Positions 2,357 through 57,236 of a stretch of 64,000 bases of DNA are shown in pieces; position 1 is the first letter of the stretch, and each line of letters opens with the position of its first letter. The DNA comes from Methanocaldococcus bathoardescens. Its GTDB lineage: Archaea; AGJL01; Methanococci; Methanococcales; Methanocaldococcaceae. Where the stretch lies: contig NZ_CP009149.1 of the NCBI RefSeq assembly GCF_000739065.1, positions 1,249,311 to 1,313,310 of the forward strand. Direction: 5' to 3'. The position numbers and the translations under genes were made by a program. A model generated the notes under the pieces. The model did no database searches and was not told the DNA's origin. It worked only from the letters and a program-made list of their open reading frames with translations.

Positions 2357-3436
2357 ATGAAATTTTTCAATAGGGAGAGGGAGATTTATAAGATTTTGTC
2401 TATTATGGAAGGAGAGCCTAATTTGATTTATTTTATCTATGGCTCTATAAACTCTGGAAAGACAGCTTTGATTAATGAGATAATTAATAATAGATTAGAT
2501 AAGGATAGATATGTTGTGTTTTATATAAATCTTAGGGGGATATTCGTATCTAAATACGACGATTTTATAGAGGTTTTGTTTGAAGTTTATGATGATGATA
2601 AAAAACCTATTGAAGTTATAAAAAGCTTATTAAAAGATTTTCCTACACTATTTGGCATCCCCGCACCAAAAAATACTTTGGAAGAAATTTTAAAGAAGAA
2701 AACAACTAAAAATGTATTTAGATATATAACTAATGTTTTAATGGAGATTAAAAAAGATGGCAAACAACCAATATTAATAATAGATGAACTACAAAAGATT
2801 GGAGACATGAAGATTAATGGCTATCTTATATATGAGCTATTTAACTACTTCATTGATTTAACTAAGGAGTTGCATCTATGTCATGTTTTTTGCCTAAGTT
2901 CAGATAGCTTATTTATTGAGAGGGTTTATAACGAGGCAATGTTGGAGGATAGGGTTGATTATATTTTAGTGGATGATTTTGATAAGGAAACTGCTTTAAA
3001 ATTCATGGATTTCTTAGCTAAAGAGATTTTAAATAAAGAATTATCTGATGAGGATAAAGAGCTTATTTATAGCTATGTGGGGGGAAAGCCAGTTTTAATA
3101 ATAAAAGTTATTGATAAGTTAAGATATGAGAGCTTAGAGGATATTTTAGATTATATGCTTAAGGATGCTGTTCAAAAATTAAAATATTTTTTGAAGGAGT
3201 TAGATTATATAAAACCAAAGGTTGCTATTGGGGATGAGGTTATAGAGATTAAAAAAGAAGATATCATTGAAGCGTTAAAATTATTTAAAAATAATTATGA
3301 GATTAGTGATGATGACATATCAGAGCCAGTTTATGTTTATTTAGTTAAAAGAAATATTTTATTCCTAAATCCTATTGAAGGAATTCTAAAACCGCAGAGT
3401 TATTTGGTATGGAATGCAATAAAGAGGATATTATAA
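2357..3436 (+). CDS. archaeal P-loop ATPase (ATPase_2 / MJ-type family)
   Basis: A 359-residue ATPase of the archaeal STAND-like group (Pfam ATPase_2), which is expanded in Methanocaldococcus and of unknown function. Walker A is GSINSGKT (29-36). Walker B is PILIIDEL (138-145). The C-terminal half is a winged-helix-like region ending [12 protein letters not shown], a typical tail for the family. The gene is monocistronic, starting at ATG after an AT-rich leader. Its last roughly 40 bp occur twice more downstream (about 3504-3556 and 3627-3671), separated by hairpin repeats. The family is expanded in multiple copies, so gene conversion with paralogues could be the source of those tails. No substrate or partner can be inferred. 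Confidence 0.88.
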
Positions 3437-3671
3437 CTAAGAGACATTGCTTCCGTAAGGAAGCAATGCATCGGGGTATCGCAATAGGGGATTCCCCTAT
3501 GCCCGCCAGAGTTATTTAGTGTGGAACGCTATAAAGAGATTACTGAATGGACATTAATTGGGGCTGAAAGCCCCAACTTAATGGACAAGTTTTGATGAAA
3601 CTTTTGCTAAAAGTTTCGTTTAAAGTCTCAAAGTTAATTTAGTATGGAATGCAATAAAGAGGATTTTATAG
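3392..3671 (+). repeat. three copies of the ATPase gene 3' tail, separated by hairpins
   Basis: Copy 1 is the true gene end (3392-3436). Copy 2 (about 3504-3556) reads [15 protein letters not shown] then stop. Copy 3 (3627-3671) reads [12 protein letters not shown] then stop. Between copies 1 and 2 lie a 10-bp stem hairpin (3445-3468) and a B-type hairpin (ATAGGGG/CCCCTAT, 3484-3500). Between copies 2 and 3 lie an A-type hairpin (3548-3586) and the hairpin GAAACTTTT-GCT-AAAAGTTTC (about 3596-3616). The copies differ by scattered substitutions, so they are not very recent. Confidence 0.85.
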
Positions 3672-3905: not shown

Positions 3906-4559
3906 ATGAAATTCTTCTTAGACACAGCAAATGTTGAAGAAATTAAAAAATACGCTGAGCTTGGCTTAGTTGATGGAGTTACAACAAACCCAACATTAGT
4001 AGCTAAGGAAGGAAGAGATTTCTATGAAGTTGTTAAAGAAATTTGTGAAATTGTTGACGGTCCAGTAAGTGCTGAGGTTATATCAACAGATGCTGAAGGA
4101 ATGGTTAAAGAAGCGAGAGAATTGGCTAAAATAGCTGATAACATAGTTATAAAAATCCCAATGACAAAAGATGGAATGAAGGCAGTTAAAATATTATCAG
4201 CTGAAGGAATAAAAACAAATGTAACATTAGTTTTCTCTCCATTACAAGCTTTATTGGCTGCTAAGGCAGGAGCTACCTATGTATCACCATTCGTTGGAAG
4301 GTTAGACGATATTGGACATGTAGGAATGAAATTAATTGAAGATGTTGTAAAAATATACAAAAACTATGATATTAAGACTGAGGTTATAGTTGCTTCTGTT
4401 AGACACCCATGGCATGTTTTAGAGGCAGCTAAGATAGGAGCAGATATAGCAACAATTCCACCAGCAGTTATGGATAAGCTCTTCAACCACCCATTAACAG
4501 ACATTGGTTTAGAGAGATTCTTAAAAGATTGGGAAAATTATCTAAAAAGTAGAAAATAA
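3906..4559 (+). CDS. tal: transaldolase (short archaeal/FSA-like type)
   Basis: A 217-residue transaldolase of the short form. The family transfers dihydroxyacetone units between sugar phosphates (sedoheptulose-7-P plus glyceraldehyde-3-P to erythrose-4-P plus fructose-6-P) in the non-oxidative pentose phosphate branch. The TIM barrel begins [10 protein letters not shown], with TTNPT at 26-30. The Schiff-base lysine is K83 in [20 protein letters not shown] and [10 protein letters not shown] are also typical. It resembles MJ0960. The start has a strong GAGGGAT ribosome-binding site. The last codons (GTAGAAAATAAA) are repeated after the hairpin element immediately downstream. Confidence 0.95.
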
Positions 4560-4667
4560 AGAAAAACAGCAATCTATAATAATGGACATTAATTGGGGCT
4601 GAAAGCCCCAACTTAATGGACGTGGGGTATACCAATAGGGGCCTTGCCCCTATGGGTAGAAAATAAA
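4549..4667 (+). repeat. composite hairpin element (A+B modules) flanked by 12-bp direct repeats
   Basis: Module A is 4583-4621 (stem GGGGCT-GAA-AGCCCC with outer CATTAA/TTAATG arms). Module B is 4622-4655 (GGTATACC palindrome, then a CCAATAGGGGC/GCCCCTATGG stem). The 12-mer GTAGAAAATAAA, which is the transaldolase 3' tail with its stop codon, occurs at 4549-4560 and again directly abutting module B at 4656-4667. Related copies of A and B lie at 3474-3586, 49351-49420 and 56950-57236. Confidence 0.85.
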
Positions 4668-49330: not shown

Positions 49331-49420
49331 TTAAAACTTTTATTTTGAAACCATAGGGGGAACCCCTATTGGTATACCCACGTCCATTAAGTTGCCCCTT
49401 TTAGGGGCAATTAATGTCCA
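49331..49420 (-). repeat. composite hairpin element (B+A modules) plus duplicated tail
   Basis: On the minus strand, module A (49382-49420, stem GCCCCT-AAA-AGGGGC) is followed by module B (49351-49381, ATAGGGG-TTC-CCCCTAT). TTTCAAAATAAAAG (49337-49350) comes next, resembling the 3' end of the upstream DUF2111 gene (TTTCCAAAATAAG). It is the same A-B-tail order as after transaldolase, with different stem bases. A related hairpin, CCATAA/TTATGG, lies at about 49452-49473. Confidence 0.78.
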
Positions 49421-56949: not shown

Positions 56950-57236
56950 CCATAGGAGGAAACCTCCTATTGGTATGAACCTTTTAGTAAAAGCTTCACC
57001 AAAATATAACACCTCCTCGCTTCGCTCGGAGGTGTAACTTAGAGTTTTTTGGGTATACCAATAGGGCGAAGCCCTATGGTTGCGGATACCACACGTCCAT
57101 TAACCAATTATCAAAGATTTTAAATTAAATAAGGCACTTATAGAAGCCCAAAGGGCTTCTAAATATTCCTTAGTAAATAATATCTTCCTTTGATAATTGG
57201 TTATAAGTTGCCTCTTTCAGAGGCAATTAATGTCCA
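56950..57236 (-). repeat. composite hairpin element, largest copy, interrupted by a MITE
   Basis: Read on the minus strand: module A (stem GCCTCT/AGAGGC, split by the MITE at 57102-57202), a reversed B hairpin (ATAGGGC-GAA-GCCCTAT), a CCTCCGAGC/GCGAGGAGG hairpin, a loop resembling AAGCTTTTACTAAAAGG, and a final B hairpin (ATAGGAGG-TTT-CCTCCTAT) ending CCTATGG. The stems differ from the other copies but pairing is kept. Confidence 0.75.
57102..57202. mobile_element. MITE-like element, family 3 (nested)
   Basis: A 101-bp element with perfect 15-bp inverted termini AACCAATTATCAAAG and CTTTGATAATTGGTT. The core is AATAAGGCACTTAT, a hairpin AGAAGCCC-AAA-GGGCTTCT and ATTCCTTAG. It splits module A of the surrounding hairpin element between CGTCCATTA and TAAGTTGCC, so it is younger than that element. 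It has no ORF. Confidence 0.82.

Follow-up and report, generated by a model that had tools for sequence, protein, structure and literature searches.

The hairpin repeats that fill the intergenic space of Methanocaldococcus archaea are very probably small non-autonomous mobile elements, the insertion of which is accompanied by a long duplication of the target that preserves or rebuilds the gene ends they enter. Such elements would be assembled from tandem sets of palindromic modules with an overall size of ~65-200 bp, and each insertion would duplicate an unusually long target stretch, typically of 30-50 bp. To our knowledge, this is about three times the length of the duplications left by known transposons, with a variability in length exceeding that of any known transposase, and a length outside the known transposase range implies an as yet undescribed enzyme or repair route. 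A long target duplication would explain how repeats of this kind can enter a gene-packed genome without killing genes, and the flanking repeat marks and dates each insertion. The evidence is computational throughout.

The window, a stretch of 64,000 nucleotides comprising bases 1,249,311-1,313,310 of a 1,607,556-bp Methanocaldococcus genome, harbours the gene for an ATPase, one of ten ATPase_2 genes with an MJ1010-like C-terminal domain in this genome, behind which two hairpin elements alternate with additional copies of the gene tail:

2357 to 3436, forward strand: ATPase gene (ATPase_2 and MJ1010-like_2nd domains), the host gene; ORF of 359 aa with Pfam matches to PF01637 (4.6e-74) and PF21690 (2.5e-38)
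3392 to 3436, forward strand: T1, the host gene's own tail and left repeat copy flanking HP1, with the stop codon at 3434-3436
3437 to 3502, forward strand: HP1, hairpin element composed of module C (~3439-3471) and module B (3473-3501, ending CTATGC), from sequence and fold
3507 to 3545, forward strand: T2, second tail copy, starting 5 nt past the HP1 end, 74% identical to T1 over 34 nt
3546 to 3619, forward strand: HP2, hairpin element composed of module A (3548-3588) and module D (3597-3617), from the fold and from the copy at rpl39e
3620 to 3671, forward strand: T3, third tail copy, 94% identical to T1 over 34 nt and followed by ordinary intergenic sequence

The presence of the ATPase tail (VWNAIKRIL plus stop) in three copies, as claimed by a preceding sequence-only reading, has been confirmed in the sequence itself and by a repeat search, with spacings of 112 and 123 between the copies T1, T2 and T3. 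Extra copies had been placed at 3504-3556 and 3627-3671; the copies are real, with their limits corrected to 3507-3545 for T2 and 3620-3671 for T3. Equally, a hairpin does precede each extra tail, HP1 being located between T1 and T2 and HP2 between T2 and T3, and the T2 repeat starts at the end of module B. Each element consists of two hairpins, with a predicted fold of -30 kcal/mol (-30.1) for HP1 and -31 kcal/mol for HP2. The frames of T2 and T3 are both open up to a stop, in agreement with the initial description; as a start codon is contained in neither, nothing points to translation of either one. The match between T1 and T3 scores 31.9 against 19.1 for the 99.9th percentile of a control with the tails of other ORFs, and among the 63 window ORFs scanned, the ATPase gene is the sole protein-coding ORF with a clear nearby tail copy, the second-ranked match being a tRNA cluster. 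An Rfam search of the window retrieved matches to tRNA and 5S only, and the hairpins match no known RNA family.

Further module B elements in the window show this arrangement as a trace or lack a clear repeat, one of them being located downstream behind a single-copy gene:

3906 to 4559, forward strand: transaldolase gene, single copy
4549 to 4560, forward strand: left copy of the 12-bp repeat GTAGAAAATAAA at the transaldolase stop
4582 to 4655, forward strand: hairpin element of modules A and B behind the transaldolase gene
4656 to 4667, forward strand: right copy of GTAGAAAATAAA, immediately 3' of module B
49352 to 49379, reverse strand: module B of an A+B element behind a gene, with only a repeat trace left
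57051 to 57078, forward strand: module B of a composite element, without clear flanking repeat

The pair of 12-bp repeats is a trace of the kind of transaldolase tail duplication that can be seen in relatives, as the last 42-45 bp of the gene, stop included, are repeated behind an A+B or C+B element in G001, G007 and G013, with the tail being single in eight other genomes. Equally, the G003 counterpart (L231) of the gene beside the element at 49352 to 49379 possesses a 42-bp repeat.

Module B, as present in HP1, was subsequently scanned throughout the genus with an exact 12-base pattern, a sampling which is biased toward this module, and 150 distinct module B ends (GGTATNSCAATAGG..CCTATG) were compiled from sampled loci, mainly of the window's own genome, G001 and G003. 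At 75 of these 150 ends the left flank is repeated with a score of at least 15, starting 0-6 nt past the hairpin, compared to 1.3% upon swapping of the flanks among elements and 5/310 (1.6%) at random positions of the same loci; the 75 include the CRISPR repeats L135, L166, L171, L184, L186 and L263 and the doubtful matches L250 and L261, which do not enter the finer counts. The B element has a sharp right end, made up of CTATG plus one base, and the repeat starts 0-1 nt thereafter in 61 of the 88 scoring cases. With strict scoring (n=29), the duplication is variable in length, spanning 27-71 bp with a median of 37 (IQR 34-47). About half of the elements are without a detectable flanking repeat, which may be due to age. 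The abundance of the module differs among genomes, with ~50 exact matches each in G000 and G003, rare occurrence in the near-complete Methanocaldococcus genome G012 and near absence from the near-complete G002 (1,328,194 bp, two cas1 genes), where no exact extended copy has been found.

The location of the repeats can be assessed with the 57 that score at least 18, some of which represent both ends of a single element or orthologous events, leaving fewer independent insertions than repeats. Most of them lie over ORF 3' ends, approximately a dozen span a gene start with its ribosome site and a further five the 3' half of a tRNA, with L137 as a sixth, weaker tRNA case; several insertion events are at orthologous sites and hence not independent. 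Insertion at a gene end with restoration of the tail, as had been proposed for the ATPase gene, holds for dozens of unrelated genes present in single copy, for which other species have empty sites. It is confined neither to ATPase genes nor to tails, since gene starts and tRNA 3' halves are duplicated as well. The tail targets are mostly ordinary genes such as transaldolase, hypE, cas4 and rpl39e, the latter three named from translated ends and neighbouring genes rather than by family search. Among the 18 tail cases under strict scoring, 12 have a repeat that terminates no more than 4 nt from the stop codon, which may in part be a bias as selection keeps the coding part only. Affected tRNAs are those for Ala, Val, Ile, Gly and Leu and one with an opal anticodon, which we take to be the selenocysteine tRNA; in all six cases, duplication sets in at the T-loop edge, 23-24 nt upstream of the tRNA 3' end, and extends 5-12 nt beyond that end. 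While selection alone may explain the enrichment at gene ends, it can hardly account for the T-loop boundary.

For 18 loci, the flanks were joined into a predicted empty site, which was then searched across the genus. For 15 of the 18 loci, two or more other genomes gave an unbroken alignment across the junction with ~74-94% identity, with L143 empty in seven genomes and L123, L160, L233+ and L254 in six each; at L128, L140 and L241 the downstream sequence does not align, so that no empty site was called. Because of these empty sites in other genomes, the repeats are to be considered insertion products and not older tandem repeats, although, in a comparison between species, loss of an ancestral insertion is not always separable from gain. 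Insertion with target duplication is supported by three features, namely the exactness of the right end, the preferred boundary at the T-loop and the presence of empty sites. Insertions inside genes would mostly be lost, while a duplication spanning the stop or the start of a gene or a tRNA 3' half would yield an intact gene next to a dead copy, with gene-tail, hairpin and tail as the resulting order at gene ends. Survival at gene ends would thus be a consequence of the long duplication restoring the very end it spans in a gene-dense genome.

Recombination among paralogous ATPase genes had been named as the alternative, and would, if acting alone, have produced the extra tails with the hairpins included. 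As sole or general cause this is improbable and has been rejected, as the same architecture is found at the single-copy transaldolase, hypE, cas4 and rpl39e genes and at tRNA genes; at the ATPase locus in the window, however, paralogue exchange probably contributed a part. HP2 is present as a 95% identical copy at the rpl39e tail (L002) with its own short rpl39e-tail target repeat, which indicates that HP2 is mobile. Four further ATPase loci have HP2 in their tails as well, two in G003 (L069, L257) and two in G011 (L081, L266). The left junction of HP2 (TTACTGAATGGAC) is shared by the five ATPase loci of three genomes, being given as AAATTACTGAATGGAC with the form AGATTACTGAATGGAC in the window, and the tail spacing is 122-123 at four of the five. 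The junction ATTACTGAATGGAC carried by T2 with HP2 thus recurs at the four ATPase loci of G003 and G011, pointing to paralogue exchange. Among 58 compared tails, T3 is nearest to T1, whereas T2 finds its top match in the HP2-flanking tail of L069. On the other hand, locus-private variants are common to both tails at L266 and L069. At L266 these variants extend over 43 bp, with the left tail ending in LLN and the right tail in IIQ, which suggests that the junction arrived with the element and that the tail is local; this pattern would be obtainable from recurrent insertion at one spot or from gene conversion between paralogues. With T3 nearest to T1 and T2 nearest to an HP2-flanking tail elsewhere, HP1 would have been inserted first with duplication and T2-HP2 would have come thereafter by exchange, two insertion events and an exchange with an HP2-bearing ATPase paralogue giving rise to T1-HP1-T2-HP2-T3. 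The tails are too short and too diverged (74% between T1 and T2) to fix this order, and a tree-like ordering of T1, T2 and T3 was dropped as 45 bp carry too little signal.

Concerning the mechanism of insertion with target duplication, the leading model is a staggered double joining with subsequent gap repair. An integrase would most likely join the element to two target strands 30-50 nt apart, with repair synthesis copying the span between the joined strands; integrating enzyme and staggered joining, like the event order at the ATPase locus, are steps that we infer. Tentatively, an undescribed archaeal integration system, distinct from reverse transcriptase and Y1 enzymes, might be at work, which would join strands 30-50 nt apart with a preference for tRNA T-loops and gene ends and rebuild the gene that is hit. 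No mobilising gene has been found for the elements. The main rival is template switching, whereby a polymerase copies a remote hairpin and rejoins its own template 30-50 nt upstream with no need for a transposase. Variable length, modular mixed hairpins, some short junction matches (TAA, GAAC) and the fact that neither a transposase nor a reverse transcriptase was identified are in line with such a process, which is nevertheless rather unlikely in view of the sharp right end of B (61/88 at 0-1 nt) and the T-loop boundary in 6/6 cases, both of which suggest recognition of ends and targets.

The normal reaction of CRISPR Cas1-Cas2 duplicates the ~30 bp repeat, and off-target integration by these proteins would be attractive as Cas1 chemistry yields long duplications, Cas1 is encoded in 12/14 genomes and the tRNA T-loop region and the EF-2 gene at its 3' end are among the targets of casposases (PMC9939771). 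This is very improbable, as G002 has two Cas1 genes yet no exact extended B module, G012 is without a Cas1 match yet contains an element with repeat (L174), and the inserts exceed spacer size; the presence of Cas1 does not track element number, and the Cas1 gene of the window's genome is located elsewhere in the genome. Least probable of all is retroposition, by which nicked targets would receive reverse-transcribed hairpin RNA in the manner of SINEs with their variable duplications: target duplications of variable length and a right end that is conserved while the left ends are diverse would fit, but the reverse transcriptase domain RVT_1 (PF00078) was found in 0/14 genomes of the genus, with a control search positive in 3/14 known genomes, and SINE-like movement has been rejected on this basis. 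Equally rejected has been mobilisation as REP elements by RAYT, as the Y1 transposase (PF01797) occurs only in G006 and G013 among the 14 genomes, being absent from the window's genome, from G003 and from the most element-rich genomes.

Suyama, Lathe and Bork reportedly described, in 2005, the elements MJRE1-3 of M. jannaschii as palindromic, dispersed and mostly intergenic. The hairpins analysed here resemble these elements, being from the same genus, palindromic and dispersed, with modules that fold as hairpins; we know of no gene-end-restoring target duplication of 30-50 bp for MJRE. A literature search for archaeal palindromic elements with long target duplications, which did not cover the 2005 study, found none. 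The M. jannaschii elements are cited as sometimes residing inside ORFs without breaking them and as archaeal repeats fused into protein genes (PMC2229807). The YPAL / RU-2 elements of Yersinia are similarly small, non-coding, palindromic and mobile with variable-length target duplications of 3-26 bp (PMC2229807); different from these are the longer duplications (27-71 bp, median 37), the modular hairpins and the prominence of gene ends and T-loops as targets in Methanocaldococcus. In casposons, the Cas1 transposons of archaea, the target duplication amounts to ~15 bp, with insertion beside the tRNA T-loop or at the EF-2 3' end (PMC9939771); the present elements likewise adjoin the tRNA T-loop (6/6) or, for the most part, gene tails and duplicate their target. 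Casposons, however, carry cas1 and polB, whereas the elements here are gene-free and, with 65-200 bp, too small to do so, and their duplications have a median of 37 and a minimum of 27 bp with strict scoring. Mitochondrial GC clusters and double-hairpin elements are small mobile hairpin modules which merge and shuffle and have no known enzyme (PMC4478555; PMC2800124); duplications are 2-3 bp for the yeast GC clusters (PMC4478555) and reportedly do not occur for the Allomyces elements, as opposed to the median of 37 bp here. As short, non-coding elements that duplicate their target, the hairpins are also reminiscent of MITEs; some composites possess CCATAG...CTATGG ends and many have other left ends, with long and variable duplications. 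The hairpins are of a known kind, while the novelty appears to lie in the long duplication that restores genes.

New gene ends can also be built by this process. At L247 (G003:C1:1249382-1249440), the one case inside an ORF, an ATPase ORF runs in frame through the whole hairpin element, which may thus be translated. A 25-bp repeat flanks this element, the encoded residues being DYILVDD on its upstream and EYILVDD on its downstream side. Hairpins have furthermore been observed in the vicinity of CRISPR loci. An element with a duplicated tail of 50-62 bp lies exactly between cas4, called by neighbourhood, and cas1 at L303 (G003:C1:342448-346248) and L293 (G013), and B-type hairpins adjoin CRISPR arrays at L134, L135 and L138 in the window's own genome and at L171, L184 and L186. 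Lone ATPase tails without a full upstream gene are present on contig C2 of G003 (L259 near 726, L260), with orphan tail sites also in G004, G005 and G013; together with the many broken ATPase copies, these suggest that the ATPase family turns over fast across the genus. Two near-identical clusters of three B hairpins each (L116-L121; G000:C1:145600 and 146470) are located ~870 bp apart.
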